NCBI GenBank assembly: GCA_030765065.1
Contig: CM060975.1
Location: 162,474,993 to 162,538,992, forward strand
DNA from: Deroplatys truncata
Taxonomy: Eukaryota > Arthropoda > Insecta > Mantodea > Mantidae
Length of the DNA: 64,000 nt
Direction of reading: 5' to 3'
In this document: positions 4,081 through 58,534 of the stretch, piece after piece
Layout of the letters: each line of letters starts with the position of its first letter
Position numbering within the stretch: position 1 is the first letter of the stretch
Notes under the pieces: generated by a model
What the model saw: only the letters and a program-made list of their open reading frames with translations
Told to the model about the DNA's origin: nothing
Database searches by the model: none
Translations under genes and position numbers: made by a program

Positions 4081-4084
4081 TACA

Positions 4085-9347: not shown

Positions 9348-9379
<32 letters not shown>

Positions 9380-9503: not shown

Positions 9504-12500
9504 AATAAGAAACACTCTTGAGGTAAGAGGGGCAGCAGTGAATGCTCTCAATAGCCCCTGACCACAACAATGAGCATAAGAGTAGAATTTTTTTTTTATA
9601 ATATTACTTTTAAAATGAGCTAATGGATATGTTTAATGCTTTCATTGCAATGTGCTACTCTTCATTATTATTTGGAAATGAAAACCAATTAGTTTACTGA
9701 AACTGAGCAGAAACAAATGCATATGCTGTGCACGTGTTGTGTGGAGTAATACAAAAGTGTGCTTTTTAGAGCAGATCCAGTAAGATACATGATGAGAAAA
9801 TAACATATAGTCTTTTACTCATTGAAAGAGATACAAATTTCTACTTGGCAAATGATTGTGATGGAGCCTCTCACTGAGTCTCCCACACTGTGGATAGTAG
9901 GCATGTCCTTTAGTGCTAACCAGCGAATGATTGGTTGGGAAGGGAGAAAGCAGTCTCAGCTAATGAAATGCCCAAAACACAATCGAGGCACAAGGAGAAA
10001 GCTCTAGACCTCCTCCTTTTCTCCCACCATAGAAAGAACCTTCTAGGCATTCTTGTTGAAGTATGAAAGCAAGCGTGTTTGCTGCCAAGGAAGGATAGTT
10101 GTGTTCAATGCTGTGTGCTGTTTACTCAGCAAGTCTGCGTGGCAAATCCTGTGTTTGGCACATCAGTGAGCGATAGAGAGAAACAGAGGCTAGATGGCGA
10201 ATCCTGTGTTCAAGAGAGTTAACGGAAGAAAGAAGAGGCTGGCTGGTGCGCTGTTGATTTAAGTGCTATGGGCACTGGATAAACTGAGACTACAGGAAAA
10301 GTGGATGAAGTCACACTGGTTTCAGGAGTGGGATTCAAATGCTATAATGGAGAAAAAAGTCCAAAAATCATTAACAGAAATGAAAACTGAAATTCAGAAT
10401 GGAGAAGATGGACTGATGATACACAATTTATTGGGTATACTAACATTTCATCGCCCAACTTCATAATGTTATACCATTTTGGTTATTGAAAATCCATCGA
10501 TTTTCAATTTTGACATTCATACCTTCTGGTAGTCTTATTTATTCATCAGTCTACTATTTTTCTTCTTATTCTTAAAAGTTTCAATAACTTTTCATTAAAA
10601 AGGGCCTCCACTGTGTTAAAATGTGTCCATATCAAGATAACATAAGGCTTCTGCACTCAATGAATTCTGGAACTTGACTGTTGTGAGAGTATACATTCAG
10701 ATGCTACATGGGACTGAGACAGGTTCAAACTCGCATGAATGTAAGCTTATATCACGCTAACCAGATGGCACTGACTATCATTTGTAATAACACATTCATG
10801 TGATTAATTCTTGTACAATTTTAAGATGTATCACACAAGAAGTACTGTTTATTATATATAATACCTTGTGATTAGGTATATTACCAGCATTTATCAAATT
10901 AACAGTAACATTTAGATATGGTAGTGTCATGGGTTTCACACAAAAATGTTTATTTTTTATAAAATGCACAAATACTAGCATATAATAACAGCCAAAGCTC
11001 CAATTAACAAAGAACTAAGGTTGTTTTGAAATAAGATGTCCGTTCTTGAGTGCCATGATACCACCAACCAATGGGAGTCTTCCAATGTTGTCATATGAAG
11101 TTCCCACCATTAAGAAGTAATCCATGTCAAGTGAATTTGTCTCTAATAAATACTACTTATGCAAGGTCCAAATATTCTAATTTAGCAACAATTAATCCAC
11201 AAAGAAGGTAGAGGATAATGTTTGTAATACAACTGTGAAACCCATATGTTTTTAACTCAAATAGTTTTATAATACAAATGAATAAACACAACCATATATT
11301 TGATCATAGTTCTTAGGCACTGAAGTGGCTATCATTTGTATATATTTGTAATTACATAGTGCTCTAATGCAAACTATTGCCAGGATGGTGCTAAAGAATT
11401 ATGTTGAACAAACAACTGGAGTTTGTTTTCTTTCTCTCTGTTCAAGGTGAGAGCCAAAAGCTTACTTAGCCTGGTAAGCAGAATTCACATCTGGAGAACA
11501 CAACATGTTTATGAGTTAAAATACTTAATATCTATAATCATGGATATTGCTTAAGTAGCAATAGAACAGACATGAATTTATTCGCTAGTCAAAGAAGTAG
11601 GTATTGCAAAGCCAGGCTCCAAATATATATTATTCTTTTGTGTATACACATTTTTTTAAAAGGTGCAAAAATAAGAAAAAAATCAACTCAATTTAAAAAC
11701 TGCTCAGCAACTTAGTGCTAAACCATGTTGTGTAGGCAAAGCAAGCATGTCTCACTAGGTACTTGCATTGCCTTGTGCTAGACAGTGTTTGAGAGGGAAA
11801 TATGAAAAGAGTAAGGGTAATGAAGTGGCAATGCATAGTTACAGTGGCTGAGGGCTAACTCGGCACTTGACAGCCATGTGACTCACTCAGCTGCTAAGGA
11901 GGCTCCCTTATCGCCTCCAATTGTGTTACAGATACATCTTGCGAGCAGAGGTGTGATGTCACCCATGTTGCAATATATGCATACATTCCTCAGTTGGTTC
12001 ACAGTTCTGCCTTACACGTGTTGGGAGTGCAGCTACTGGACACGGACAGCGAGTGAAAAATGTGACAATGCTGCAGATGGAGCGGCCACCAGGCAGCAGT
12101 AACATCAGCTGGTGCCAGGTTAGTTCTCCCAGACTTTAGCAACAGCATCTGATTTGCTGGAGAGCAAAATTCTTCCCATTTGAAAGGTACTGTAATAGAA
12201 AGCATGGATTTTAACCATGTGCTTTCATTAATTTAGCCAAAAATAAACTATCAAGTTTTTTTGTCATGGGTGTAATGGCGAATCATTAGGGTCTATTTTA
12301 AATCACTTAAAAGCTGTTTATCTAAAAAATTACTTATGACTGTTTTTTTTTAACATAACTTGTTGAAATTTCCAATGCAATCCATTATAGAAGGAGACTC
12401 AAAAATTGACTGAAACACTATGTTTTCATGTTTCTAGTATAGCAACTCTAAATAGTTATCAGCATAAATAATTTGCCTTTTATTTATGGACTTACATATT

Positions 12501-19024: not shown

Positions 19025-19164
19025 TTAGGTTAGGTTAGGTTAGGTTAGGTTAGGTTAGGCTAGGCTAGGCTAGGCTAGGCTAGGCTAGGCTAGGCTAGGC
19101 TAGGCTAGGCTAGGCTAGGCTAGTCTAGTCTAGTCTAGTCTAGTCTAGTCTAGTCTAGTCTAGT
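19025..19164 (+). repeat. Interstitial telomere-like array in three blocks
   Basis: Seven perfect TTAGG units (19025-19059) are followed by twelve CTAGG units (19060-19119) and nine CTAGT units (19120-19164), all in one register of 5 bp with no indels. TTAGG is the telomere unit of most insects and other arthropods. Each later block differs from the one before by one base, so the array appears to have spread by expansion of successive variants. It is in TRAPPC8 intron 2, far from any chromosome end. Confidence 0.95.
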
Positions 19165-19711
19165 CTTGTTTACCTTTTGTTGCTTTAGATTAGCTACTTT
19201 GGATTGAAAATGTTGCTAATTTTGAATTCTGAAATGGGAAAAAAACCTAATGAAATTAATGTATTTTCAGATAATGAATTTGGGTTAAGGTACTGTAATT
19301 ATACAAGATTATTTTCACAGAACTCATATGAAATGGTTGGAAAGCAGGATGTACACACTTACAGTGCAATACTGTGAAACTTGGTAGATGGTTCTTGTTG
19401 GCTATTGCAATAAGTACTAATAGCACTGAATCAGTTTTTGTAACTTTTTTAATATCCATGTTTTACTGCTGCAGATTTGAGTTCTGCTAGATAGAATAAG
19501 AATTCAGTCAAAGTTTACAATGGGCAGAGTTGTGCATCAAAGGTGAAAGCTGTCTGCTACCACCATTCCTCTCACATGTATGTCTTCTGCATTTTACATT
19601 ATGCTTCCAACTCTTTGCTGATGAATCAAGTGGTTTAAATTGTTTTTATTCCTTCAAAGTTGCTTTCTTTTATGCTTGAGTGAGTTACATCATAATTGTT
19701 TCTGTAGTTTA

Positions 19712-23290: not shown

Positions 23291-24019
23291 AAACAAAAAA
23301 ATCTGATGTGTTACACTCACATGACTTTCTCTACTCTTGTACAAACTATTTTTACAAACGCCTATTCTCCATAGGCTTCCCCTCAGGGGCTCACCTTATG
23401 TGAGTACGGGTTTTTGGCGCACCCGGGGGTTCCCGAGCCAATCATCGCCATCTTCATCATTTCATCCCCGTCCGGTCGAGGTGGGTTCGTTCTCGTGACC
23501 GGGGGACTCAAGGTAGGCTCTCGTGCGTTCTGTGCATATCATTACATCTCGCCCCTCGCCATCGCTTCTGTCTTCTCTTCTATTTATGCACATTTTGCCC
23601 CACGCCCATTCATTTACACGTCTCTTTTACTTCTTCGCCGGCCTACCTTGAGTGCGAAACGCCCACACACTTTTAGTTTCTTTTAACCTTTTATGTTAAT
23701 CCTCCGTGGACACAGCCTGACGGATACCCGCGCACCGCGTGCGCAGCTGGGTGAGTGGGTAATAGCGTCATCCCCACCACCTGGGGTCGTCATGTAGGGT
23801 TTGTGTTCGTATCCGCTGTTCAACTGCAGTCCCGCGGGGGGGCCATTGCATGAGCTGCTGGCTTCCGACGGCGATTGGGTCCCTCTGTCTATGTTCTGGG
23901 AGATGTGACCCTGGGGTGAGCTAGGTATAGATAGGCCACTCACCCAAGCCGGGGTAACGCCCGGGAAGTCAGAGCCCGAGGTCGGAGACGGTTGCAATGG
24001 TGGAGGATTTTTTTTCGCT

Positions 24020-25309
24020 ATGGAGCACCCTTTCTCCATTATAAACAACAAGCGCCGAAAAGTTTTAGTAACAGAAGTAGCACCGCCAACAGCTGGTTGT
24101 TACTTAGTGATTACCCGTACAGAGGAAGGACAATCATTCGAGAAGGTGAACCCTTTTATCATCCAGAAGGGCATTGACTCAATTGCTGGTCCGGTTCTTT
24201 CCTGCACTCGGCTTCGTAATGGTTCGTTGTTAGTGCAAAGCAAATCCGAGGCACAAAGTAAGTCCTTGTTGAGCGTCACGCTTCTCCACGGTTATCCTAT
24301 CCGTATTGAGAAGCACCGCACCTTGAATTCTTGTCGAGGCGTTGTCACCACGCATAGCCTCGATGGCATATCGGACGAGGACCTGGTCGAATATCTTGCA
24401 GACCAGAAGGTGACAGCGGTTCATCGAGTGCAGGCCAAACGCGACGGCGTATTGGTACCCACTCGTACCCTGTTTCTAGCATTTGATGGCGTCGATCTGC
24501 CCACGAGCATCTCCGCAGGGTACGAACGTATTTCTGTGAGGCCTTATATTCCTAGACCTCTGCGTTGTTTTAAGTGCCAACGTTTTGGGCATACGCAAGT
24601 CTCATGTAAGAGTGCCATTAATATCTGTGCAACATGTAGCCAGCCCTCACACGAAGGTGCCTGTTCAACAGCCCCCGTCTGCGTTAATTGTAAAGGGTCA
24701 CATTCTGCTTCGTTTGCCGACTGTCCGCGGTATTTGGACGAGAAGGCGATCCAGGAGATCCGGGTAAAGGAGAAACTCTCCTTCGCCGAAGCCCGGAGGC
24801 GTTTCCATGCGCGCCAACCTTCACTCCTGCGATCTGGCACATTTAGTTCTGTTGTTGCCTCGCCAGTACCACGAGTAGATGCCGAAACTCAGACCTGGAC
24901 CATGACTGGATTAACCGCCACTACCATCCGGCCGTCTATTAAAGCTACTGTTACCAAGCCCTATAAACCTGGTCCAAAGTCAATGAAGTCGCAAGCCGCT
25001 GAAAAGAAGCCCAAGCAAAAACTACGTAGGGAAGATTTTTTGAAAGACCCTCCGCGTGCGCGCGGTAACAAAAGTTCACCTTCTCCTCCTCGGAGGTCGC
25101 TGTCCCAGGAAGGTCCTGGGACAAGCCGCGCTCAGCGGCACCCCTCACCCATCGCTACCCAGAACCGATTCACGGCGCTTGAATCGGTTTCTGGCACTGA
25201 GCGCGTGGGCCCTCCCTCCGAGGAAGCTATGGAGTCTGTCCAACTCCATACAAAAAGCCCGAGCCCTATGGTTAAACAAAAGGTAATTTTAAGCCGCCCT
25301 TCTAAATAG
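24020..25309 (+). CDS. LINE ORF1, gag-like nucleic-acid-binding protein
   Basis: An intact 429-residue frame starting MEHPFSIINNKRRKVLV. Residues about 183-235 hold three zinc knuckles in tandem: CFKCQRFGHTQVSC, CATCSQPSHEGAC and CVNCKGSHSASFADC. The C-terminal third is basic and rich in Pro and Ser. ORF1 proteins of I and Jockey-type LINEs bind the element RNA and form the particle that carries it. It ends 22 bp before the ORF2 start. No stop or frameshift is seen, in contrast to ORF2. Confidence 0.9.
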   Translation: MEHPFSIINNKRRKVLVTEVAPPTAGCYLVITRTEEGQSFEKVNPFIIQKGIDSIAGPVLSCTRLRNGSLLVQSKSEAQSKSLLSVTLLHGYPIRIEKHRTLNSCRGVVTTHSLDGISDEDLVEYLADQKVTAVHRVQAKRDGVLVPTRTLFLAFDGVDLPTSISAGYERISVRPYIPRPLRCFKCQRFGHTQVSCKSAINICATCSQPSHEGACSTAPVCVNCKGSHSASFADCPRYLDEKAIQEIRVKEKLSFAEARRRFHARQPSLLRSGTFSSVVASPVPRVDAETQTWTMTGLTATTIRPSIKATVTKPYKPGPKSMKSQAAEKKPKQKLRREDFLKDPPRARGNKSSPSPPRRSLSQEGPGTSRAQRHPSPIATQNRFTALESVSGTERVGPPSEEAMESVQLHTKSPSPMVKQKVILSRPSK

Positions 25310-25331
25310 ACAGTTTATCCCCTTTTTCTTA

Positions 25332-28300
25332 ATGGCTATCCTGACCTGGAATGTACGTGGTGTACGATCGCATAGGGCGGAACTGCAACTTTTATTGCGT
25401 TCCCATTCGCCTTTGGTCGTATGTTTGCAGGAGACTAAGCTTCGCCCTCACGATCCTTTTGATCTCCGAGGATATACTCCGGTTCGCTACGACCTTGAAC
25501 CGGAGGAGGGTACTCCTGCTCATGGAGGTGTCATGTTGTTAGTGCGTAACGACGTTCATTTTAAACCTGTCACACTTACATCCGACTTGCAAGCTGTTGC
25601 CGCTCGCCTTCACTTACCAGGCTTTTTGTTTTCTGTTTGCTCTGTGTATTCACCTCCATCGTCTCCCCTCGCTCCCGCGGACATTCGAGCTCTCCTGTCC
25701 GCTCTCCCAACACCGTTTCTTCTGTTGGGAGATTTTAATGCCCATCACCCACTGTGGGGTTCGCCAAGGGCTTGTGCGAGGGGAACTCTTCTTTCCGACA
25801 TTCTTTATCAGTTCAATCTTTCCATCCTCAATACAGGTGCACCTACTTTTATTTCTGATTCTTCTGGTACATTCTCTCACCTGGACCTTGCCATTTGCTC
25901 ACTCCAGCTTGCTCGTTGTCTTCAGTGGAACGTCGTCGCTGACACCTACTCCAGCGACCATTATCCCTGCATCGTTTCTCTTCTGTCACACCACGTACAG
26001 CATTCCAGAGTACCTACCTGGATATTCACAAAAGCCGACTGGAGCTTGTATTCCAGCCTCGTGCATTTTTGCGATCAGCCCTTCGCTGACATTAACCAAC
26101 TAGTGCAGCACCTTACGTCTACGATTTTCTCTGCCGCCGAACGCACAATTCACCGTTCATCCTCTCAACCTCGGCGGCCACCTGTTCCGTGGTGGAACGA
26201 GGATTGTCGGGACGCCGTTCGTGCCCGTAGGACTGCACTTAGGGTGTTTCGGCGACGCCCTACACTTGATAATTTGGTGACTTTTAAACAATCGCGCGCC
26301 AGGGCTCGTCGCATTATTCAGGATAGCAAGAAGGCGTCGTGGACTCGTTTTGTCGAGTCTTTTAATCGCTTTACGCCTTCATCTGTTGTTTGGGATAAAC
26401 TTCGTCGCTTCTCAGGTAAAGTGTCGCATTGTACTGTTTCTGGCCTTCAGGTTTCCAATGCCACTATAGTGGATCCGGCTGCCATCGCTAACACTCTGGG
26501 TGCTGCATTTGAGGCGGTATCCAGTTCAGACCATTATTCCGCGGCTTTCGCTCTATCAAAGCCCGGCTGGATTCCGACACCATTAATTTTCGGTCTGCTG
26601 ATATTTAGTGTTATAATGAACTTTTCACAATGCGGGAGCTGTAGCACGCTCTTCATTGCTCTAGGCACTCCGCTCCTGGGCCGGACGGCATTCATGTACT
26701 GATGTTAAAGCACCTTTCAGCCGACAGTAAACGCTTTCTCTTACAGGTCTATAACCGTATTTGGCAAGACGGCATTTTTCCTTCCGTTTGGCGCGAAGCC
26801 ACCATTGTCCCTATTCTTAAGCCTGGGAAGGATCGCCAACTACCTTCCAGCTACCGCCCTATCTCCCTCACCAGTTGCATTTGCAAGGTGATGGAGCGCA
26901 TGATCAACGGGCGCTTGACATGGTGGCTTGAGTCTCAGAAACTTCTAGCGAACGCTCAGTGCGGATTTCGTCGCTATCGCTCTACCGTCGACCATCTGGT
27001 GTCCCTGTCGACGCATGTTATGAATGGATTTCTGAGAAAGTGTCAAACCGTGGCTGTGTTTTTTGACCTGGAGAAAGCTTATGGCACTTGTTGGAGGGGC
27101 GGCATTTTACGTACACTTCACGCATGGAATATCCGCGGTCGTCTTCCCATATTTCTTCGGGAGTTCATGACGGACCGCGTGTTTCGTGTACGTGTGGGCT
27201 CGGTTTTATCTCGTCATTTTATTCAAGAGAACGGAGTACCGCAGGGCTCTGTACTCAGTGTCACACTTTTTGCGATTGCTATCAACCCCATTGTTGATTG
27301 TATTCCACCTGGCGTGTCATCGTCCCTTTTTGTTGACAATTTTGCCATTTATTGCAGTTCACGGCGGACCTGTCTTCTCGAACGCCGTCTCCAGAGCTGT
27401 ATCGACCGTCTCTACGCCTGGAGTAACGCCAACGGCTTTAATTTCTCCGCCGAGAAATCCGTCTGCATCAACTTCTGGCGCCGGAAATATTTCCCTCCGC
27501 CCTCTCTCCATCTTGGGCCAGGGATACTTCCGTTTGCAGACGAGGCGAAATTTTTGGGGTTGATTTTTGATAGGAAGTTGTGTTGGACCTCGCACGTTTC
27601 CTTTTTAAAAGCAAAGTGTGACCGTTCTCTTAATCTTTTACGTGTTTTAAGTGGCACATCCTGGGGAGCTGATCGGACCGTCCTTCGCCTTTATCGCTCT
27701 TTGGTCCGATCCAAGCTTGATTACGGGTGTATTGTTTATTCGTCGGCATGTCCATCTGTGTTACGTCGCTTGAATCCCATTCATCATCGTGGTATTAGAG
27801 TCGCTACAGGGGCCTTTCCAACTAGCCCCGTGCCCAGTCTTTATGCTGAAGCTGCAGAGCCTCCGCTGTCCTCCAGGCGTGAGATGCTCTTATGTAGCTA
27901 TGCCTGTCGACTCTCCAGCTTGCCTGTCCACCCGTCCTTCGCGGTATTTTACGAGGATTTGCTTGACCGGCAATATTTAGTTAGCTCCTCTGCATTGCTC
28001 CCTCCAGGGGTTAGATTCCGACTGCTACTTCGGCATTTGGACGTTACGCCAGCGCCGGCCCTTCCAAGGGGGGAAACGCGTTTTCCTCCATGGTTGCGCG
28101 CTGAGGCCCTCTGTCACCTTGGGTTATCGTCGATGCCGAAGAATGAGTCCCCTTCTTCAGTCTTTAGATCAGCGTTTTTAGAACTTCAGTCGCAATTCGG
28201 GGACTTTGATTTTATCTTTACTGATGGATCTAAGACTGATGCTGGAGTAGGATGTGTCTTTTTTTGTGGTGGAAATAGTTTTACCTTTCGTTTACCAGAG

Positions 28301-29017
28301 CAATGTTCGATTTTTACCGCCGAACTTTTTAGCATTTATCAGTCTCTTTTATACATTCAGCGGCACGACTTGCGGCACTGTTTTATTTGTTCCGACTCCC
28401 TGAGTGCTCTTCAAAGTATTAGCTCGCTGTACAGTTACCACCCGCTCGTACAGCGCATTCATGACCTGCTCCACTCGCTTGGTGTCTCTGGCATCAGCGT
28501 CTCCTTCATGTGGATTCCAGGTCATGTGGGCATCTCAGGTAATGAGTCTGCCGACGCCGCTGCCAAGTCGGCGATTTTATCACCCAGAAGTTTTACCTCT
28601 GTTGTTCCCTCGTCAGATTTGTTTATTGTTTTACGTCGCCGCATCCTCTCGCTTTGGAGCGATGAGTGGACGGCCCTCCGGGGGAACAAGTTGCGGGAGG
28701 TTAAGCCTCTCCCATTAGTCTGGGCTACCTCTTCCCGTGCTTCTCGTCGGGAAGAGGTAATTTTAACACGCCTTCGTATCGGACATTGCATTTTTAGTCA
28801 TAAGTATTTGCTGAGTGGTGACCCTGCACCACTCTGTGGGCAGTGTGATGCGCCCTTAACGGTGCGTCACATTTTAGAAGAGTGTCAGGTTTTAGCTCCA
28901 TTGCGCATTCGTGTTGGTCTGCCAGTTGGCCTAGCCAACGTTTTGGCAGACGACGCGCGTATTGTAGAATGTGTTTTACGTTTTATTAGTGACAGTGATT
29001 TTAATCTGCGCATTTGA
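25332..29017 (+). pseudogene. LINE ORF2: endonuclease, reverse transcriptase, RNase H, frameshifted
   Basis: The first part (from ATG 25332) is an APE-type endonuclease with WNVRG, CLQETK, LLGDFNAHH and SDHYP. Homology leaves this frame at about 26540-26560 and continues one frame over, where two TAG codons (26606 and 26642) precede PGPDGIHVLMLKHL and an open 771-codon frame from 26702. That frame has RT blocks (YRPISLTSCICKVMERM, FFDLEKAYG, GVPQGSVLS), then FVDN at 27329-27340 where the family has a DD pair, then RNase H motifs (FTDGSK, ELFSIYQ, CSDSLSAL, WIPGHVGISGNESAD) and a C-terminal CGQC...H..EEC. A frameshift, two stops and a changed catalytic box make it inactive. Confidence 0.9.

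Positions 29018-29323: not shown

Positions 29324-29354
<31 letters not shown>
29322..29354 (+). repeat. (ATC)n LINE tail
   Basis: About eleven CAT/ATC units form the 3' terminus of the LINE, directly followed by the target duplication CCATAG. Confidence 0.9.
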
Positions 29355-29357
<3 letters not shown>

Positions 29358-29992
29358 TAGACTTCATGTTAATCAAGATATCGAAATGTCAAACTTATTG
29401 GTAATTTTCTTGTAGATGCAAGGGGAATATGGTAGGTTTTAAGCGATAGTCAAATATTTTAACGCTAGTTGCTATGTGGCACATTCCATTCTCTTTGCAT
29501 GTCCAGGACATAAAAAAATTAATAACGAATTTGAGAAAAAGTATAAGTATTGGAAAATTTAAGGGAATAACAAGCAATATTTCGAAAACAGTTCACTCAA
29601 CAAAAGAAATGTATATGACATAAATTGTGTATTTTAACGCGATCTACATTTTTTGTGTAGTAAAATTTTGTCTATCTCTTATGGTTTACCAGTTATGCAA
29701 AAGCCGTTCACAATGAAGAATACTTTTGGAGACATTCCCAGAAAATTTGAGATATACTTTTCATTTCTCATAACAATATCTTAAACATATGATATTTTAA
29801 TCAAAATGTTAGAGCCATTTTTGAGAAAATTAAAATTTTCGAAAAATGTTCCATGTAAAGGGTAGTCTGGGGTGGGGGGATTTTCTTGAAAACCTTCGTG
29901 TCGCATCTCTGGAAGATACTGAACCTAAATACCAAGTTTGGTGTTTATCCGACTGTTCGTTTCTGAGTTATGCTGTTCACACACACACGCAC

Positions 29993-30027
<35 letters not shown>

Positions 30028-30160
30028 CATGTCTCCAAAAATGCCTATTTTGGATTCAGGGGGTCTCAAAACATGTATTTCCGGTGAAATCTCAGTATCA
30101 AATTTTTGGGTGGAATACAATACTTCCCCTACTTACTATATGTAGTAGAGAAAGTAAAAA

Positions 30161-35555: not shown

Positions 35556-35569
35556 TAAATTATTAAATT

Positions 35570-36478
35570 TTGAAATTATTAAATTTACAAAAAAGATCTA
35601 TAAAATTCACAATGGAAAAAGAAGAAAATGGCCAATTACCTTACCTAGACATCAGGATCATCAGAAATAATGCACACAACAAACTAATGTTCGGCATTTA
35701 CAGAAAACCAACACACACAGAAAACTATATTAAAAACAATAGCTACAATCCTACAAGCCACAAACATGCAATTTTAAATAGTATTACAAACAGGTTAGTA
35801 CATATACCAATGGAGAAAGAGGAATACCAGAAAGAATACCAACACATTATCAACATAGCCACTATGAATGGATACCAGAAAAAAACAATAGATAAGAAGA
35901 TAAAAAGGTTTGAAAGACAGAAATACATCCAACAAATGACTACGTTACTCAGACAACAAAAACCACAAGCATATAGAAAATTCACTTATCACCCTTGGAC
36001 ACATCATAAATTTCAAAGGATTTTCAAAAAATACAACATCACCCTGTCTCCACAGAATAACCACAATATACAGAAACTACTATGCAACAGAACAAAAGAT
36101 CCTATCCCCAACGATAAATCAGCTGGTATATATCAAATTGATTGTAATGAATGTAACCTGGTATACATAGGAAGAACCAAAAGAAATCTTGAAATAAGAC
36201 TTAAAGAGCATATGAGATGCATTTACCAAAAGCAGCAAGATAAATCAGCAGTAGCACATCATTTCTGATCTTCAAACCATGATATCACTCCAAACATAAA
36301 ACTCTTAAAACCGATCAACAACAGCAATGAATTGGACATCTGGGAAAAAATACATATTGTCAAACACAGGAATCACCTAATGAATTTCGAACTGCCGCCA
36401 CCCAACAGCCTTTGGAGGTTCATCAGCCCAGCACCAGAGAACACCACAAACCACACACATCCCCCAGACGATGACCGG
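35570..36478 (+). pseudogene. Penelope-like element: RT C-terminus and GIY-YIG endonuclease
   Basis: An open frame of 232 codons contains QLPYLDIRI (late RT), FGIYRKPTHTENYIK, the SHKHAILNSITNRL block, KKTIDKKIKR, and the endonuclease core AGIYQIDCNECNLVYIGRTK then EIRLKEH. A TGA at 36266 follows HHF; past it the same frame continues with LDIWEKIHIVKHRNHLMNFE up to about 36470, so only one stop separates the conserved C-terminus. The GIY and YIG motifs, the R of the core and the CxxC-type finger are intact. The palm of the RT is absent, so this is a 5'-truncated copy. It is the best preserved PLE in the window. Confidence 0.85.
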
Positions 36479-38945: not shown

Positions 38946-39430
38946 AAAAGATCATTTTCAAAGTGTAAGCTGTCCCTGCTGCTATTCTGTGGATTCTACT
39001 AAACAGAGAGCAAACAGTAAAGCAAGGTGATACAGTATGCTAAAACTGTACAATATTAAATATCAATTAGAATAGAAATGTTAATTCATTCGTTGTACTT
39101 TCAATTACAGTAGGCATAAATTTCTTGGTAGGCACCACAATTTTTAAACATTGTCCATAAAAGACTCCAGGATGATTAAATCAAAAGGTTGCTTGATTTA
39201 ATAAGGTGCAGTAGTATATAAGTTGAATAATGAATTACAATAAATTATATTTATTATGGATTATTCAGTTTTGGACTAATTACGCTAGACCTAAGGAGTT
39301 TTTAAAAATAGCACTTGTATTTGACATCAAGAAAATTAATTTTCCAGCAGATTCCTTTGCCATTAATTTATTACTAATTTAATATTGGTACAGTAGCAGA
39401 ATACACATATTTTTATTAAAAATACATCCC
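38946..39430. other. No gene recognised
   Basis: Intronic AT-rich sequence with no supported feature. Confidence 0.4.
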
Positions 39431-40358
39431 TTTTTACTTTCTCTAATACGTATAGTAAGTAGGGGAAGTATTGCATTCCATCCAAAATTTTGATACCGAG
39501 ATTTCACCGGAAATATATGTTTTGAGACCCCCTGAATCCAAAAAAAAGCATTTTTGGAAACATGTCCGTGTGTGTGTCTGTGTGTGTGTGTATCTGTGTG
39601 TGTGTCTGTCTGTGAACAGCATAACTCAGAAACGAACTGTCGGATAAACAACAAACTTGGTATTTAGGTTCAGTATCTTCCAAGGATGCGACACGAAGGT
39701 TTTCAAGAAAATCCCCCCACCCCAGAGTACCCTCTACATGGAAGATTTTTCGAAAATTTTAATTTTCTCAAAAATGGCTAACAATGTTGATTAAAATATC
39801 ATATGTTTAAGATATTTTTATGACAGATAAAATGTATATCTTGAATTTTCTGGGAATGTCTCCAAAAGTATTCTTTATTGTGAATGACTTTTGCATAACT
39901 GCTAAACCATAAGAGATAGACAAAATTTTACTACACAAAAAATGTAGATCGCGTTAAAATACACAATTTATGTCATATATTTTTTTTGTTGAGTGAACCA
40001 TTTTCGAGATATTGCTTGTTATTCCCTTAAAATTTTCAATACTTATTTTCTCAAATGGGAATTCGTTATTCATTTTTTGTCTTGGATATGCAAAGAGTAT
40101 TAATCTGTGGGAAAGGGAATGGTGCTGCACCTAGCAACCAGCTATTAAGAGATATGTATGTGCTTAAAGGCTACTGTATTTCCAAATTGCCCTTGTAAAT
40201 ATACATTCCCCTTACATCTACAAGAAAATTAGCAATAATATAGACTCTGCAAATGTTTATCTCGATTAACATGAAGTAGATGGAGAATAAGCATTTGTAT
40301 AAATAGTTTGTACAAGAGTAGAGAAAGTCATGTGAGTGTAACACATCAGATTTTTTTT
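39431..40358 (+). mobile_element. Helentron-like repeat family, copy D
   Basis: About 925 bp matching copies A and E, with the same ends (ACTTTCTCTAATACG left; AGTAGAGAAAGTCATG then a hairpin and CAGATTTTTTTT right). It has a longer TG microsatellite (about 39569-39613) and a variant block of about 100 bp near 40090-40210 shared with truncated copy C. It sits between T-rich flanks. Confidence 0.75.
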
Positions 40359-41345: not shown

Positions 41346-43223
41346 TAGCTACTGTCTTTCCATAATCAGGCATGTCCTTTGAATTAGTTCTTTCCTCCAG
41401 ATATGTCTGCTTTGCATATTAGCAAAATATGTGTTGCATCTTTCTCTTCCTACATATACGGCATAAACATTCTTCAGTCCTTCCCTTATAACCTTTCAAT
41501 CTCTGTACTCCCAATTTAAATCATGCAATATCCTCTCTTTGACTTTTATTACATTTATCATATATATCTGTTTACCGCCATTCATTCAAAAAGCTTTATA
41601 AAATTTAAGAGAACTTCTTTTTTTCATCATAGCCCATAAATTCTGCCCATCTATATCATCCATCTTATTTTCCAAAATCCTTAAACCATATTCTCTTTTC
41701 CTTGCCAAATATCACCCATCCATTTATTTTAAGTTGGTGTCTTATTTCACCTAACCAATTCTTGAGTGTATATGCTTTTCTTGTACTTTTAAACAGTCTT
41801 TCAAAATATGTCCTTGTGATAATTAGTAAATTTTATGCCATTATTTCAATACTATTTCCATAATCATCCTTCTTACACTAATTTTATTTCTTATCCCTAA
41901 ATTTCAATTTCATAAAGCCACTTCAATTAAAGCCTGGTAATCCATTCAAACCATCTTGTATGCATCATAGGAGCTATACACAAACATTTACCAAGCAGCT
42001 TTAACGTTGCCTTACCTTTTGTTTGGGCCATTACTTTGTGCTTCCCCATCCTTCTGTGGTATTATTTTATACATTAATAAATGAAATCTTTAACAGTTTG
42101 AATTTCCTTGCTCTGAAGCAACCTACTCTAATCTTTTCTTAGTTTATTACCTTTTTTTTTTAAATATTATGAGTTTTGTTTTTTCAACATTTACTTTAAG
42201 TCCCTATTCTTTATGTCCTCTTTTGACATGTGCCCTTCAGCCCCTTTTGATTTCATTTATCAAGCTCCTTAAACCTACCACCAAGAATGAACTCACCAAG
42301 TCATCTGTGTATAACAGTCCTGGTTTTCCATTGTTATTAATTATTGGTATATTCTTATTAACCTCCTTTAATTCCTCTCAAACATCAGCTATAAACAAAT
42401 TAAACAGTATAGGACTTAATTTACATCCTTGTCTCAGTCCTCTATCCTTTTCTGTTACCTTTTCCTCCCCTACCTTAATACAAAATGTACTTTATATAGT
42501 TCCTTTGAAATACTATGTCCTGCTTAACCCCTTGTTTTGTAATTTATGCCATAAGGCCCTCTTATTATATGTCTTATGCTGTTTCTAAATCTATGAACAC
42601 TGTGTAACCTTCCATGTTTCTTATTATGTAGTATATGTTTTAGCAAAATACTTAATATTAGAATATTATCTGCAGTTCTCCTAGCTTTTCTAAAACTGAA
42701 TGGATAGAGTGACACTGAATCACTTTCACACAACATATCACTTAATGTTTTTCTAGAATTTGATAGCAGTGCAATACCTCTGTAAATGTTTGGATTATTT
42801 ATGTTACCCTTACCTTTACGTATAGCTACATTAAAGTTACTTGTGAGCTCCTTGGTTTACTTTTATCATGTTTAATTTCATTTATTAGTCTATTTGAGTA
42901 TGGAAGTCTATTTGTTCAGTCCAAGCATGAAAGAATTCAGAGAGTAAACCATATCTTTCCACTACCCTTTTCTTTTTAATATTCTTTACTTTCTTTAGAA
43001 CTTCTGTCTCAGTAAATAGTGTAACTCTTCTTAAGTCATTTTTACAGGCAAAATGATAATTTTCCATACCTCGGATATTTGTTGCAAACAGCTGTTTAAA
43101 ATGCTCAACGGATACACTTGGCTCTATAGATATTATTCCTGAATGATCTTTTGTACGTTTCCTAATCACATCCCATATCTGTTGCATGTTCCCTGAGCTT
43201 ATTTTCATTTCAATTTTCCAACC

Positions 43224-44083
43224 TTTTTACTTTCTCTACTACATATAGTAAGTAGGGGAAGTATTGTATTCCACCCAAAAATTCGATACCGAGATTTCAC
43301 CGGAAATATATGTTTTGAGACTCCCTGAATCCAAAACAAATTATTTTTGGAAACATGTCCATGTGTATGTCTGTGTGTGTGTCTGTGAACAGCATAATTC
43401 AGAAATGAACAGTCGGATAAACACCAAACTTGGTATTTAGGTTCAGTATCTTCCAGAGATGTGACATGAAGGTTTTCAAGAAAATCCCCCCACCCCAGAC
43501 TACCCTTTACATGGAACATTTTTCGAAAATTTTAATTTTCTCAAAAATGGCTCTAATGATTTTGATTAAAATATCATATGTTTAAGATATTTTTATGACA
43601 AATGAAGTGTATATCTCGAATTTTCTGGGAATGTCTCCAAAGTATTCTTCATTGTGAACGACTTTTGCATAACTGGTAAACCATAAGAAATAGACAAAAT
43701 TTTACTACACAAAAAATGTAGATCGCGTTAAAATACACAATTTATGTCATATACAGTTTTTTAGTTGAGTGAACCATTTTCGAGATATTGCTTGTTATTC
43801 CCTTAAATTTTCCAATACTTATACTTTTTCTCAAATTCGTTATTCATTTTTTTATGTCCTGGATATGCAAACAGAATGGAATGCCCCACATAGCAACCAG
43901 CGCTTAAAGGATTTGACTATCGCTTAAAATCTACCATGTTCCCCTTGCATCTAAAAGAAAATTAGCAATAAGATTAACATCTCGATGTCTCGATTAACAT
44001 GAAGCATATGGAGAATAAGCGTTTGTAAAAATACTTTGTACAAGAGTAGAGAAAGTCATGTGAGTGTAACACATCAGATTTTT
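43224..44083 (+). mobile_element. Helentron-like repeat family, copy E
   Basis: 860 bp, very similar to copy A, inserted in the linker of the LINE ORF2. The left flank is CCAACC plus a T run and the right flank a T run plus CTATATACC, so the empty site was CCAACCTTTTCTATA or close to it. Ends, hairpin and TG tract (about 43368-43386) are as in the other copies. Confidence 0.8.
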
Positions 44084-46214: not shown

Positions 46215-46405
46215 GCGAAACAATTTAATTGGATCTTGAGTCGGTGGATACATTAAAACTTCACTTACTTTAAATTAATGGAACATGTTTCAAAAGCACT
46301 ACTTGCTTTCATCTTCAGCTTTTTTTCGACTGAGCATGGCGAGAATTCGGGTCCATAGATGTAGGTGGCGCGTAGGTGGTATCATCTGGTGTGTCCATGA
46401 TGAAG
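46215..46405 (-). mobile_element. PLE 3' end, inverted partner copy
   Basis: The minus-strand sequence from 46405 to 46215 matches the plus-strand sequence 48598-48775 at about 90 percent. It carries the same hammerhead core. It adjoins the PLE coding remnant that starts at 46411 on the plus strand, so it is the inverted fragment typical at PLE 5' ends. Confidence 0.75.
46282..46318 (-). ncRNA. Hammerhead ribozyme motif, left inverted copy
   Basis: Minus strand: CTGAAGA (46318-46312), stem II GAAAGC/GCTTTT, GAAA (46291-46288), ACATGT, GUU triplet ending at 46282. It is the inverted twin of the motif at 48683. Confidence 0.75.
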
Positions 46406-46410
46406 AGATG

Positions 46411-46562
46411 GACAAATCTGCCGTAGCAAACCACGACATCAACCCCAAAGTGAGACTTCTGAAATACAGCACCAATCCAACAGAACTTAAAGTTTGGGAA
46501 AACATACACATAATCAAACACGAAAATGGTAATGAACTTTGAAATCTCACCACTCTACAATC
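46411..46562 (+). pseudogene. Penelope-like element C-terminal remnant
   Basis: MDKSAVANHDINPKVRLLKY then NPTELKVWENIHIIKHENGN, ending at a stop at 46540. The KSAVA.H and W..I.I.KH motifs are the PLE tail that follows GIY-YIG. The element is cut at 46563 by a TA-flanked transposon and resumes at 48591. Confidence 0.7.
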
Positions 46563-46564
46563 TA

Positions 46565-48588
46565 TACCCCCGTCGCTGTAATGTTGCACTTGACAGATAG
46601 CATTTAAGTTGGTACATTCGCAAAACAACAGATGAAAAGCTTTAACCGTTTGACTTCCTAAGCCAATCTTAAGGCAGTATTCCGGATGGTCGATGACAAA
46701 GCGGAACTGGCTCTGTTGCCGGATGTAACTATTCCCAACCACGTGCATCAGTTTGTGAATCTCTAGCACGAGTGTTGAGTTGTTCTTTGCAAGCTACATA
46801 TTGTTCATTGTTATTTATATTTGTGGTTATTGTTTGATAGTTTTGTTATTGTTCGTTTATACATGTATATATATATATATATACTTATATTTATCTATTT
46901 TTATATATATTTCATTCATTATACAAGACTTAAGTGTGACAATGTCTGAAAAATGACGCTGATCGCCGAGTGATGATTCATGAAGTGAAAATCCTTTGCG
47001 TCGAGGTGTGCCACTTAATAGTCAGCATTGGAACTATTAAGGAGGACCCGGGAATTCTTTGAACAGGAAAAGGAGTACGTGAAGCTTCACAGCCATCTCT
47101 CCATTCCTGCTGATAAAGCGTACGAGCTGCAGCAGCTCTTGGATTAAGCATGAGAACTGTTATGCACAAGGGAGTGAAACTCCAATAGAAAGAGGACAAA
47201 ATTCCTGAACCATCTGGAACACAGCAGATATTTCTATCAGCTCCAGGGAAGAAAAGAAAGAAGCCTTGTCCAGTCACAAATCTTGATGCTTTCCAATTAG
47301 ATGCCATACGTAGGCACATTTATGCCTATTATCATAGGAAGGAATATCTGACCATAGCAAAGCTGCTTATATCACTTAGAGAAACAGAGCTGTTCACTGG
47401 GGGCAAAACATCACTGAAAACGATGCTGAAAGACATTGACTTTCGGTACAAAAAACTGAATGGAAGGAAAGTGCTGCTGGAAAAGACACACATTGTAGTG
47501 GTGCGAAGCATGCTTTTGCATAAAATTTTGGGCAAAGACCTCCATAAAATAGTGTGGCTGGACAAAACATGGGTCAATGCTGGAGAAGCTGTAACAAAAT
47601 GTTGGACAGACGACACTCCTAACAGCTGTGGCCATCAGCCGATAGGGAAAGAACCCAGCTAATTGTGGCTCACGCTGGTTCTTCTAATGGGTTTGTTGGA
47701 GACGGTCTACTGGTCTTCAAATCGAACAAAACTGGAGATTACCACAAAGACATGGACCATTCTCGCTTCCTGGAGTGGTTCTGCTTCAGCTTCTGCAGCA
47801 ACTGGACCATCCAACAGTTATAGTGATGGACAACGCACCGTATCACTCGGTAAAACTGGACAGGCCCCTACCTCCAACAACAGAAAAGAAGTTATGGTAG
47901 AGTGGCTAAATGCAAAGGGTGTTGCTGCAGACATGAGCATGACCAAGCTGCTTCTATATTCCCTGGTGAAAGAAAATAAGCCTGTAACACCAACTTACGT
48001 CGCAGATGAATTAGCCAGGGAACTAGGTCATGAAGTGATTAGGTTACTGCCTTATCATGGCTTTATGGAAGAAGAAAGTAGATAATGTGAATAAGCTAAT
48101 ACGAAAAGCACAAGAATTATTAGTGACTGTGAACCATTGATGATATGCCTTGGTGAAGATGATGATGACAATCATGCTTCATGATGACGACAACGACAGG
48201 GATTTGGAAGGAATTGAGCCATTGCTGTTTTAAATGGGGGAGTGAAAATAACTTTGTTATGGCATGCTTATAATTTGTTTTATTTCTCCTCATTGTAGCA
48301 GGCAAGTTTGTATTATTTTGTTTCTATATTGTCAAAGTGCGTAATTTATTCTACATATGCTGCAATGTTTATGCAGAGTTATTTTCAGTTAACAATAATA
48401 ATACATAATAGTTATTATTATTGACGTTCGCTACTTATGTACACTTTTTGTATGCGGCTTAGACATGATAGAAATAACTATCAGCTGTTGTTGTTTAGTA
48501 GCCACTCTGCCAATGTCACAACCATAATGTAGCCAACCTTACGCAAAGCCATACAAACTTCAAGTGCAAAGATTCAGTGATGGGGGTA
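46565..48588 (+). mobile_element. Tc1/mariner-like transposon nested in a PLE
   Basis: The left end TACCCCCGTCGCTG and the right end (inverse of TACCCCCATCACTG) form terminal inverted repeats of about 28 bp with a few differences, each followed inward by TTGCACTTG. Each end is flanked by TA, the Tc1/mariner target. The element is 2,024 bp and carries a decayed DDE transposase on the plus strand. The PLE tail sequences resume on both sides. Confidence 0.85.
47040..48150 (+). pseudogene. IS630/Tc1/mariner-type transposase, broken
   Basis: The plus strand reads, in successive frames: a helix-turn-helix remnant (AAAALGLSMRTVMHKGVKL), RRHIYAYYHRKEYLTIAKLL, then HKIVWLDKTWVNAGEAVTKC with the first catalytic Asp, LIVAHAGSSNGFVGDGLLVF, VIVMDNAPYHSV with the second Asp, and ADELARELGHEVIRLLPYH. 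Frameshifts occur near 47655 and 47810 and several stops lie upstream. The block after LLPYH that normally carries the third acidic residue (an NPIE-type motif) is missing. The gene is therefore inactive. Confidence 0.8.
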
Positions 48589-48590
48589 TA

Positions 48591-48780
48591 AGCAGCTTCA
48601 TCATGGACACACCAGATGACACCACCTCCATACCACCTACATCTATGTACTCAAATTCCTGTCATGCTCAGTTGGAAAAAAGCTGAAGATGAAAGCAAGC
48701 AGTGCTTTTGAAACATGTTCCATTAATTTAAAGTAAGTGAAGTTTTAGTGTATCCACCAACTCAAGATTCAATTAAATTA
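48591..48780 (+). mobile_element. PLE 3' end, right part of the split copy
   Basis: The PLE tail continues after the transposon with GATGACACCACC and CACCTACATCTATG, followed by the hammerhead and the terminal sequence ending near 48775 (CACCAACTCAAGATTCAATT). It is the plus-oriented twin of 46405-46215. Confidence 0.75.
48683..48719 (+). ncRNA. Hammerhead ribozyme motif, right copy
   Basis: CTGAAGA (48683-48689), stem II GAAAGC/GCTTTT, GAAA (48710-48713), palindrome ACATGT, GUU triplet ending at 48719. Confidence 0.75.
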
Positions 48781-48789
48781 TTCTACCTC

Positions 48790-51257: not shown

Positions 51258-51423
51258 TACAGTAGAATCTCATCAGTACGTTTTTGCAGAGATCCAAGGA
51301 TTTGTACATCATAGACAAGAAAATGTGTTAAAGAAAATACAAAATGTGCAATTTAAGAATATAATTATATAATAAAATCTAATACATCTTATCTCCTAAA
51401 CAGATGTGAAATATGGACACTAT

Positions 51424-52830
51424 TTACACTGGTTTGAAATATATATCTATGGTTGTTTGCTTTGTTGGTTTTAATGCCAAAATTTTACTGTCCATCTTGT
51501 TCAGTAAAGCCATTACATCATTATCAATTTCGAAACTACACATATATCGCTTCACTACGTCCATTGTCTCCATTGCTTCCAACAGTGTAGGAATTGGCTC
51601 AGGATCTGGTTCATCATCACGTTCAACTCCCGCTAATGCTTCTTTCATTTGTTTTCCAATTATTTCATCTATTGTTGCTGTTTCATACACTGAGATTTCA
51701 TTGTAATGTTTACATATATTTCAAAAGACACACTGGCACCGTCTGCTATTTGGCGCCATTCTTCACTCTTGGAAAACTCATCTTCGCGTGATGTCATCAC
51801 CAAGCACCTGGCAAAAGCCAGCTTTATTAAAAGATTCCCTAATGGTATCTTGCATCACAGAATCTCAGGCAGTCCTAATGTAATGCATGGCATCTAAGAC
51901 AGTGATTTTTCTTGATTTCAGTGCAGCCAAGCTTCTCGGTACTAGTCTCTTCTGATACATCTGCTTCATGCACCAAATTATACCTGATCTAAAGGTTGTA
52001 GCTTACTCGTGCAATTTGCTGGGAGGAAAATGGTCTTTATGTTTCTTAAATTGGAAACAGTTGGTGGATGAGCGACACACTGATCAATGAAGAGTGCAAT
52101 TTTCCTGCTTTTTTATGCCCAGTCTTGCATCCCATGCACGTAAGGAATTTTCAAATACCGTAGAAGTTATCCAGTCTTTTGTGTTGGAAGTGTACGACAT
52201 TGAAAAGATTGCAGATTCTTGAAGCATCGCAGACTGCATGCTTTTCCAATAACCAGCTGTACCAATTTCTCCATTCTGTTTTACTATAACGCAAAAAAAC
52301 TGTAATCCTCTCCTTGTTAAGTTTCCCATGTTAAGCTTCCCGTGACACTTAGTGCCCTTCAAATCCAGGTTTTTGTCTGGCAAAAGATGGAGAAATTGTC
52401 TCTTTTCATCTCATTATAAACTTCATCAGAACTATAGTCTTTCAAAATTGATGGGAGCATTGTATTTTTCCACATTTCTGTATTTTCACATACTGTAGCA
52501 TCATCATCTAGGGCAGCAGCCTCACCTTGCACACATCTGTTAATTAAACAATGTCGATTCTTGAATCTTTCAATCCAGCCACTGAATGCTTTAAAATCAT
52601 CCAGTCCCATCTTCTGTGCTAAATGTGTCGCCTGAGCTCAAACCACAGTACCATCTATTGGCACATTTGAAGCTCTTGCTTGTGTAAACCACTTTAGTAG
52701 GACATGTTCTAATTCTGGAAACTGGCCAGGACCAAACATTTTCTTTTAACATTTTTCCCTTCTTCAAAAGCAGTTTCAATCAGTTTACATTTGCAAACAA
52801 TTGTGTTTAACGTTGATGGAGGAAACTTCT
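51424..52830 (-). pseudogene. Tigger/CENPB-type transposase, broken
   Basis: Minus strand in order: FPELEHVLLKWFTQARASNV (CENPB-type DNA-binding domain), AQKMGLDDFKAFSGWIERFK, EVYNEMKRDN where the DDE_1 domain begins, CHGKLNMGNLTRRGLQFFCV, NSLRAWDARLGIKKQENC, a region around 52000 that reads FLPANCTSKLQPLDQG-like in another frame, and the acidic C-terminus DEPDPEPIPTLLEAMETMDV ending at 51424. In-frame stops (for example in the DNA-binding part) and at least three frameshifts inactivate it. Confidence 0.8.
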
Positions 52831-52949
52831 AATTCTGGAAACTGGCCAGGACCAAACATTTTCTTTTAACATTTTTCCCTTCTTCAAAAGCAGTTTCAAT
52901 CAGTTTACATTTGCAAACAATTGTGTTTAACGTTGATGGAGGAAACTTC
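52710..52949. repeat. Perfect tandem duplication, 120-bp unit
   Basis: Bases 52710-52829 and 52830-52949 are identical as far as I can read (from TAATTCTGGAAACTGGCC to GTTGATGGAGGAAACTTC). It covers the 5' part of the Tigger transposase. Perfect identity in an otherwise decayed gene means it is recent or an assembly effect. Confidence 0.85.
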
Positions 52950-53171
52950 TGCGCTATATCCACACATTCATATTTGGATTGCAATCTACTTGATCAAGGA
53001 TTATAATTTTTCTATGTTGCTTATTTGCTGCGCCTTCTTTTTCTCCATTACAAACAAAAAGGTAAAATACAATCTACATATGTTTGATCAACACTCAACA
53101 GTAGAAACTATGCCGGTGTTTACCATGCCAAGCTAAAGCATTCATTCCACATATCGTGTCACACAAATATG

Positions 53172-56100
53172 TACATACATACATACATACATACATACAT
53201 ACATACATACATACATACATACATACATACATACATACATACATACATACATACATACATACATACATACATACATACATACATACATACATACATACAT
53301 ACATACATACATACATACATACATACATACATACATACATACATACATACATACATACATACATACATACATACATACATACATACATACATACATACAT
53401 ACATACATACATACATACATACATACATACATACATACATACATACATACATACATACATACATACATACATACATACATACATACATACATACATACAT
53501 ACATACATACATACATACATACATACATACATACATACATACATACATACATACATACATACATACATACATACATACATACATACATACATACATACAT
53601 ACATACATACATACATACATACATACATACATACATACATACATACATACATACATACATACATACATACATACATACATACATACATACATACATACAT
53701 ACATACATACATACATACATACATACATACATACATACATACATACATACATACATACATACATACATACATACATACATACATACATACATACATACAT
53801 ACATACATACATACATACATACATACATACATACATACATACATACATACATACATACATACATACATACATACATACATACATACATACATACATACAT
53901 ACATACATACATACATACATACATACATACATACATACATACATACATACATACATACATACATACATACATACATACATACATACATACATACATACAT
54001 ACATACATACATACATACATACATACATACATACATACATACATACATACATACATACATACATACATACATACATACATACATACATACATACATACAT
54101 ACATACATACATACATACATACATACATACATACATACATACATACATACATACATACATACATACATACATACATACATACATACATACATACATACAT
54201 ACATACATACATACATACATACATACATACATACATACATACATACATACATACATACATACATACATACATACATACATACATACATACATACATACAT
54301 ACATACATACATACATACATACATACATACATACATACATACATACATACATACATACATACATACATACATACATACATACATACATACATACATACAT
54401 ACATACATACATACATACATACATACATACATACATACATACATACATACATACATACATACATACATACATACATACATACATACATACATACATACAT
54501 ACATACATACATACATACATACATACATACATACATACATACATACATACATACATACATACATACATACATACATACATACATACATACATACATACAT
54601 ACATACATACATACATACATACATACATACATACATACATACATACATACATACATACATACATACATACATACATACATACATACATACATACATACAT
54701 ACATACATACATACATACATACATACATACATACATACATACATACATACATACATACATACATACATACATACATACATACATACATACATACATACAT
54801 ACATACATACATACATACATACATACATACATACATACATACATACATACATACATACATACATACATACATACATACATACATACATACATACATACAT
54901 ACATACATACATACATACATACATACATACATACATACATACATACATACATACATACATACATACATACATACATACATACATACATACATACATACAT
55001 ACATACATACATACATACATACATACATACATACATACATACATACATACATACATACATACATACATACATACATACATACATACATACATACATACAT
55101 ACATACATACATACATACATACATACATACATACATACATACATACATACATACATACATACATACATACATACATACATACATACATACATACATACAT
55201 ACATACATACATACATACATACATACATACATACATACATACATACATACATACATACATACATACATACATACATACATACATACATACATACATACAT
55301 ACATACATACATACATACATACATACATACATACATACATACATACATACATACATACATACATACATACATACATACATACATACATACATACATACAT
55401 ACATACATACATACATACATACATACATACATACATACATACATACATACATACATACATACATACATACATACATACATACATACATACATACATACAT
55501 ACATACATACATACATACATACATACATACATACATACATACATACATACATACATACATACATACATACATACATACATACATACATACATACATACAT
55601 ACATACATACATACATACATACATACATACATACATACATACATACATACATACATACATACATACATACATACATACATACATACATACATACATACAT
55701 ACATACATACATACATACATACATACATACATACATACATACATACATACATACATACATACATACATACATACATACATACATACATACATACATACAT
55801 ACATACATACATACATACATACATACATACATACATACATACATACATACATACATACATACATACATACATACATACATACATACATACATACATACAT
55901 ACATACATACATACATACATACATACATACATACATACATACATACATACATACATACATACATACATACATACATACATACATACATACATACATACAT
56001 ACATACATACATACATACATACATACATACATACATACATACATACATACATACATACATACATACATACATACATACATACATACATACATACATACAT

Positions 56101-58264
56101 ACATACATACATACATACATACATACATACATACATACATACATACATACATACATACATACATACATACATACATACATACATACATACATACATACAT
56201 ACATACATACATACATACATACATACATACATACATACATACATACATACATACATACATACATACATACATACATACATACATACATACATACATACAT
56301 ACATACATACATACATACATACATACATACATACATACATACATACATACATACATACATACATACATACATACATACATACATACATACATACATACAT
56401 ACATACATACATACATACATACATACATACATACATACATACATACATACATACATACATACATACATACATACATACATACATACATACATACATACAT
56501 ACATACATACATACATACATACATACATACATACATACATACATACATACATACATACATACATACATACATACATACATACATACATACATACATACAT
56601 ACATACATACATACATACATACATACATACATACATACATACATACATACATACATACATACATACATACATACATACATACATACATACATACATACAT
56701 ACATACATACATACATACATACATACATACATACATACATACATACATACATACATACATACATACATACATACATACATACATACATACATACATACAT
56801 ACATACATACATACATACATACATACATACATACATACATACATACATACATACATACATACATACATACATACATACATACATACATACATACATACAT
56901 ACATACATACATACATACATACATACATACATACATACATACATACATACATACATACATACATACATACATACATACATACATACATACATACATACAT
57001 ACATACATACATACATACATACATACATACATACATACATACATACATACATACATACATACATACATACATACATACATACATACATACATACATACAT
57101 ACATACATACATACATACATACATACATACATACATACATACATACATACATACATACATACATACATACATACATACATACATACATACATACATACAT
57201 ACATACATACATACATACATACATACATACATACATACATACATACATACATACATACATACATACATACATACATACATACATACATACATACATACAT
57301 ACATACATACATACATACATACATACATACATACATACATACATACATACATACATACATACATACATACATACATACATACATACATACATACATACAT
57401 ACATACATACATACATACATACATACATACATACATACATACATACATACATACATACATACATACATACATACATACATACATACATACATACATACAT
57501 ACATACATACATACATACATACATACATACATACATACATACATACATACATACATACATACATACATACATACATACATACATACATACATACATACAT
57601 ACATACATACATACATACATACATACATACATACATACATACATACATACATACATACATACATACATACATACATACATACATACATACATACATACAT
57701 ACATACATACATACATACATACATACATACATACATACATACATACATACATACATACATACATACATACATACATACATACATACATACATACATACAT
57801 ACATACATACATACATACATACATACATACATACATACATACATACATACATACATACATACATACATACATACATACATACATACATACATACATACAT
57901 ACATACATACATACATACATACATACATACATACATACATACATACATACATACATACATACATACATACATACATACATACATACATACATACATACAT
58001 ACATACATACATACATACATACATACATACATACATACATACATACATACATACATACATACATACATACATACATACATACATACATACATACATACAT
58101 ACATACATACATACATACATACATACATACATACATACATACATACATACATACATACATACATACATACATACATACATACATACATACATACATACAT
58201 ACATACATACATACATACATACATACATACATACATACATACATACATACATACATACATACAT
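53172..58264. repeat. Perfect (ACAT)n tetranucleotide array, about 1,273 units
   Basis: The array runs from 53172 to 58264 (5,093 bp) in one register with no interruption that I can see. The unit has no stop codon in any reading frame on either strand, so it produces 5-kb open frames (Tyr-Ile-His-Thr or Met-Tyr-Val-Cys repeats) that are not genes. It lies in TRAPPC8 intron 3 and inside the Tigger element. Confidence 0.98.
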
Positions 58265-58287
58265 GTCATTGGCTGCCGGTCTCCACC

Positions 58288-58403
58288 CCGACAAGGATTG
58301 ACCAAAGTAGCAAATGAGGATGTCCAATTTCAAATGCAACCTACCCTCACTGGACCGATCAAGGATTGGCCAAAATAGTGAATGTGGACATCAAACTTTG
58401 AAC
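58288..58403. repeat. Two diverged 68-bp-spaced tandem units beside the array
   Basis: CGACAAGGATTGACCAAAGT at 58290 and CGATCAAGGATTGGCCAAAA at 58355 start two related segments, each continuing with a GTGGACATC/GAGGATGTCC-like part. Confidence 0.6.
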
Positions 58404-58534
58404 ATAGTAAGCGGGAGCAAGTAAACATGCTAAACAAACATTATTTATTACATTTGGTGCCGGAACTTTCATAATTCAATGTCATACACAGGAAAAAGTG
58501 TTAATGAGGAACGTGGTAATGAGATTCCACTGTA

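Follow-up and report, generated by a model that had tools for sequence, protein, structure and literature searches.

A 5-kb perfect ACAT array in a mantis genome, probably grown from a short seed inside an old DNA transposon

Transposon-associated microsatellites are usually tens of units long. Those linked to carnivore SINEs reportedly belong to this transposon-associated kind, GATA (Bkm) tetranucleotide tracts are said to have accumulated on degenerate W chromosomes among the sex chromosomes of reptiles, and long microsatellites in Orthoptera are, to judge from its title, reportedly the subject of one study. Our literature searches returned no direct precedent for tetranucleotide tracts both long and perfect in a normal genome, an outcome that proves little. 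The array described here lies in a 64-kb stretch of the Deroplatys truncata assembly (C1:162474993-162538992, hereafter the window). It is like the carnivore SINE-linked microsatellites in its apparent growth from a short seed within or at the end of a mobile element, and unlike them in a length far above the usual range; as with the reptile GATA repeats, a normal genome carries long tetranucleotide tracts, whereas the located ACAT tracts are dispersed across many contigs rather than accumulated on a degenerate W. The nearest known case appears to be the CCTG repeat of human CNBP/ZNF9 in myotonic dystrophy type 2, which spans 75–11,000 repeats and derives from an AluSx insertion (PMC3378579). 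The window array resembles the CCTG repeat in probable origin and scale, since both are tetranucleotides with a mobile-element seed that extend over thousands of bases, and the CCTG range includes 1,273 units. The two differ in that CCTG lies in a retroelement tail and has documented instability, the property that defines dynamic repeats, whereas our array lies inside a DNA transposon and is known from one assembly; many long ACAT loci also occur in one genome here, unlike the situation at CNBP/ZNF9.

The location, the count of ~1,273 units and the complete lack of interruptions given by the sequence-only reading proved exact in the assembly. TRF reports an array of 5,093 bp with period 4, 1273.2 copies, 100% matches, 0% indels and a score of 10186, and a direct scan places the whole units as (ACAT)1273 at 53173-58264 of the plus strand; on the minus strand the same (TACA/ACAT)n array reads ATGT. 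In a scan for perfect runs of period 1–6 it is the longest in the window, with a runner-up of 68 bp, and the direct scan of all 64 kb found no second (ACAT)5+ or (ATGT)5+ run. Scans of the window likewise found no N bases, and no RNA families or tRNAs were found in it. A perfect run of 5 kb can hardly be put down to chance.

The array sits within a copy of an old DNA transposon (Table 1), which we recognized by querying the assembly with 1,001 bp from each side of the array and scoring 40 of ~3,000 first-look candidates per search. Among these best 40, with the window itself excluded, the upstream flank matches the family at 86–87% identity across its first 640–667 bases and the downstream flank at 82–85% across its first 270–290 bases, and in most of the fetched sister loci both flanks are adjacent, in the same order and orientation. 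Terminal inverted repeats and a TA target site are present at the ends of the window copy and of its sisters. One sister (L034) carries an ORF of 512 residues with Pfam matches to DDE_1 (1.6e-49), HTH_Tnp_Tc5 (1.6e-18) and CENP-B_N (1.9e-07), a DDE_1 transposase with CENP-B/Tc5-type DNA-binding domains that we take to mark the superfamily of pogo/Tigger-like elements. The transposase of the window copy is dead, its three reading frames on the minus strand across 51260-53060 being broken by 39, 43 and 27 stops, and the array lies upstream of its former start codon, ~125 bp away. The same copy contains a perfect 120-bp tandem duplication 225 bp to the left of the array, a second duplication private to it. 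Because both sides of the array are internal DNA-transposon sequence, a SINE or LINE tail was rejected as the source of the array at this locus; some of the other long tracts do consist of LINE tails.

Table 1. The array, the transposon copy that holds it and other parts of that copy, in window positions
Feature	Positions	Strand	Basis or remark
Perfect (TACA/ACAT)n array	53172..58264	.	TRF, direct scan, period scan
Old pogo/Tigger-like DNA transposon copy holding the array	51260..58532	- (transposase remnant)	Flank searches, sister layout, ends, Pfam in sister L034
Left terminal inverted repeat, CAGTAGAATCTC...	51260..51285	+	TA before it, 51258-51259; inner border approximate
Right terminal inverted repeat, ...GAGATTCCACTG	58507..58532	-	TA after it, 58533-58534; inner border approximate
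Dead transposase start codon	53046..53048	-	124 bp from the array
Two perfect 120-bp tandem copies	52707..52946	.	Single copy in sister loci

Sister copies of the transposon show what occupied the array site elsewhere in the family. We fetched 38 sister loci (L010-L028 and L030-L048), of which 34 have a readable junction; L011, L020 and L041 are incomplete, whereas L043 lacks a usable pair. In all 34 readable junctions the longest ACAT-class run at the site measures 4–13 nt, so that the sisters hold one to three ACAT repeats, generally as the short seed TATGTACATACATGCATGTC or near variants of it. A typical sister reads TATGTACATACATGCATGTCATTGG at this point, and the window copy reads TATGTACAT...ACATGTCATTGG, which places the array exactly at the transposon seed, in register on both sides and with no extra sequence. 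These 34 short runs, which provide a seed at a defined position of the element in its other copies, rule out a transposon that spread with a long array already inside it. Since the sisters hold only such runs, the array is most simply read as the in-place growth of a short internal seed and therefore not as an inherited feature of the transposon family. A ready-made tract, introduced from an extrachromosomal circle or by gene conversion from another tract, would bring its perfect copies in one step and could draw on many ACAT donor tracts in the genome, but a foreign tract would have had to land precisely on the seed and join it in register at both borders without adding a base, and we regard this origin as very improbable.

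Growth from the seed can be placed in time relative to the surrounding transposon. In columns with at least 80% agreement among sisters, the window copy carries 47/608, 11/142 and 9/226 private changes in three successive segments, or 67/976 in total, compared with 0/5,093 in the array; the array thus appears to have grown long after the transposon landed. If both had changed at equal rates, ~350 changes would be expected in an array as old as the private divergence of the copy, and if in addition nothing had been purged, the 95% upper bound on its age is ~0.9% of that divergence. The tract is much younger than its element on the assumption of equal rates, in a comparison that does not separate youth from purging. 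At an assumed rate of 3e-9 changes per base per generation, the array would gain one change per ~65,000 generations. Because turnover within the array would erase changes too, the zero count would bound the age of the present units and not that of the first expansion. The very recent expansion that was one of the options proposed from the sequence alone is therefore borne out relative to the surrounding transposon, whereas as a claim of absolute age it is weaker than it sounds.

Beyond the window, the assembly (4.29 Gb in 818 contigs) contains a whole class of such tracts. We counted overlapping exact ACAT matches on both strands and obtained tract numbers as differences between successive counts, which were 63,753 for eight units, 60,392 for nine, 31,260 for 49 and 31,114 for 50. 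This gives 3,361 perfect tracts of at least eight units and 146 of at least 49 units (at least 196 bp), the latter with a mean of ~1,048 bp, an average of 262 units and a sum of ~153 kb; the figures refer to perfect tracts and not necessarily to separate loci, as pieces of an interrupted array count separately. With 146 tracts in this class, the array is not the sole case of its kind. The claim that it is far longer than usual holds within the window and does not make it singular genome-wide.

Through their 3′ ends we located 54 of the 146 long tracts, of which 16 end in G, 17 in T, 4 in C and 17 in ACAC. We measured 33 in full, namely the window array plus every other located tract with a G or T end (32 in number); they span 202–5,093 bp, with a median of 762 and a mean of 967, and the second longest, on C4, reaches 3,238 bp by its coordinates. 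Twenty other located tracts were probed at ~1, 2 and 5 kb, where 5, 1 and 0, respectively, were pure, and the tract at C1:85328773 ends before 85329500, within ~730 bp. The window array is thus the longest among the 54 located tracts, and any of the other 92 could be longer. Under a geometric tail fitted to all 146, the longest tract has a median of 1,191 units and is at least 1,273 units long in 38% of simulations, which makes the window array a plausible upper limit of the ACAT class; an exponential tail fitted to the 33 measured tracts alone gives 1,273 units at 1.6–5.6%. As a separate observation, G, T or C follows in only 37 of the 146 long tracts, fewer than random flanks would give, and 17 further ends pass into ACAC, so an interruption or a related motif would seem to mark the end of many long tracts.

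Of the 32 other measured tracts, at least 15 resemble another long tract in their left flank, and these fall into four groups (L056/L057/L077/L080, L049/L053/L069/L078, L051/L055/L062/L064 and L060/L061/L076). Flanks of the L049 group match a dispersed repeat that is also present in the window at ~4.3, 29.4, 39.4 and 43.2 kb; its four window copies (4316-5168, 29354-30160, 39429-40356 and 43222-44083) have an internal CA/GT microsatellite. In the L056 group the flank corresponds to the 3′ terminus of a non-LTR retrotransposon, of which a copy (L120:1002-3413) encodes an 803-residue ORF with an RVT_1 match and an Exo_endo_phos_2 match just under the curated cut-off. Young copies of this LINE, the best 40 of 530 first-look candidates, are 98–100% identical to the query, and we read the tails of 20 (L082-L101) of the 39 other listed copies. 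Nineteen of the 20 end in an ACAT run of 10–63 bp (at most 22 bp in 15 and 40–63 bp in 4), and the remaining one has AATA units only, with no ACAT run; LINE copies thus mostly end in AATA units followed by about four ACAT units. Four relatives, which were picked up by their long tails rather than drawn at random, have tails of 1,226, 1,414, 770 and 210 bp. With short tails in most copies and these lengths in their relatives, similar LINE seeds of about four units thus appear to have given rise to tails from tens of bases to more than 1 kb.

Length change between near-identical copies in one genome, a mark of dynamic repeats, was found for these sister tracts and not for the window locus. It is seen most directly in a duplicate on C13 (88538511 and 88558070, 19.6 kb apart; L060 and L061), where the flanks are 99.5% and 100% identical and the arrays, both of which adjoin ACGT units, measure 473 vs 249 bp. 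Long perfect tracts are not limited to ACAT: AGAT, the only other motif counted, has 13,044 matches at 49 units. In one AGAT tract, C1:185820442-185821600, the probes 185821000-185821100 and 185821500-185821600 are both pure, whereas at 185822000 the repeat is gone.

These observations bear on whether the array is an artefact of assembly or consensus, in which a shorter or interrupted tract was inflated or smoothed, or the tracts of two transposon copies were joined. Perfect purity at such a length would be expected of an artefact, as might the perfect 120-bp tandem copy nearby. The private divergence is also unequal, the right transposon segment being less diverged than the left two (4.0% vs 7.7%, 9/226 vs 58/750), a difference that might point to two joined copies, with the caveat that the segments were compared with different sets. 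The two flanks nevertheless belong to a single family, in which they follow one another with order and orientation unchanged, and both element ends and the TA are there; most young LINE tails with ACAT were assembled short; near-identical duplicates differ in tract length; and long tracts, located by their ends, occur at 54 separate places. Given this balance, we consider an artefact unlikely, if less so than insertion of a ready-made tract.

The distribution of tract lengths looks two-regime, with 3,215 tracts of 8–48 units averaging 15.2 units, vs 146 of at least 49 units averaging 262, and a mean excess that rises from 19 units above the eight-unit threshold to 214 above that of 49 units. 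A single geometric law predicts 365 long tracts and a 49-unit count of ~6,920, vs the observed 146 and 31,260, and when a Pareto law is matched to the tract numbers, 0.36% of simulations get as far as 31,260, so that neither law alone gives a good fit in this crude treatment, which ignores interruptions. Taken together, the sequence comparisons make it probable that the array is a tetranucleotide microsatellite that had its seed in a transposon and then expanded in runaway fashion. In this scheme seeds would first lengthen through replication slippage, and at tens of units rare large-scale expansions would add many perfect units together, possibly by template switching or by misaligned repair where strands are nicked or gapped or where forks stall; subsequent gains and losses would then clear point changes from the array core. 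The two regimes would agree with the two-stage scheme set out in a review (PMC12493176), where short alleles change in small, slippage-scale steps and longer alleles undergo large-scale expansions by nick or gap repair and template switching.

The predicted folding of the repeat strands points the other way. Folded in silico as DNA at 37 °C, the ACAT and ATGT strands (96-mers) and the AGAT and ATCT strands all have an MFE of 0, and in the same test CAGG gives -13.7 kcal/mol and CCTG a weak -4.4 kcal/mol; the CCTG/CAGG repeat of CNBP/ZNF9 thus folds at least weakly, whereas ACAT does not. The stable hairpins that characterize dynamic repeats are therefore not predicted for either strand of the window array, and hairpin-driven growth is unsupported. 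As hairpins are the usual driver, their predicted absence would count against runaway expansion of a transposon seed, though to our knowledge they are not required by every known repeat expansion.

The array itself probably has no selected function. Its maintenance by selection, for example as a chromatin or regulatory element, might account for its purity and length and for the many more ACAT tracts in the genome. We judge this the most improbable of the alternatives, for the array lies within a dead transposon copy and is absent from the sister copies, AGAT tracts behave alike, and among 10 of the 27 listed window ORFs tested, only mobile-element Pfam domains scored above cut-off. The window holds several further elements. 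At 23909-29017 lies a non-LTR retrotransposon that combines endonuclease, reverse transcriptase and RNase H domains; its GC content is ~50% vs ~35% around it, and copies of the dispersed repeat flank it. Inverted repeats of 187 nt, 90% complementary, at 46219-48782 enclose two ORFs (47189-48085) that look transposase-like by eye and had no match in Pfam. An ORF at 35567-36268 with a GIY-YIG match is possibly part of a Penelope-like element. At 19025-19166 a pentanucleotide run passes through three successive blocks, TTAGG, TAGGC and CTAGT/TAGTC, in which the unit changed stepwise; we take the TTAGG block to equal the insect telomere unit. This interstitial run, together with the types of element present, would fit an arthropod and probably an insect.

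The window array is, on this evidence, a striking yet not unique case of runaway repeat growth, and, if it is real, kilobase-long perfect tetranucleotide tracts in chromosome-scale assemblies would not necessarily be errors. We raise, more tentatively and as a possibility that we would not favor, that the germ line may run a general, motif-tolerant process of runaway expansion, in which many hairpin-free, transposon-seeded tetranucleotide tracts pass a threshold and grow to kilobases. If true, this germ-line process would be the natural equivalent, across a whole genome, of the repeat-expansion loci of humans. If real, the 146 ACAT tracts would form a natural experiment on when slow slippage tips into large-scale expansion, with seeds that are known in part (mostly about four units in LINE copies), no disease ascertainment and a motif without predicted hairpins.
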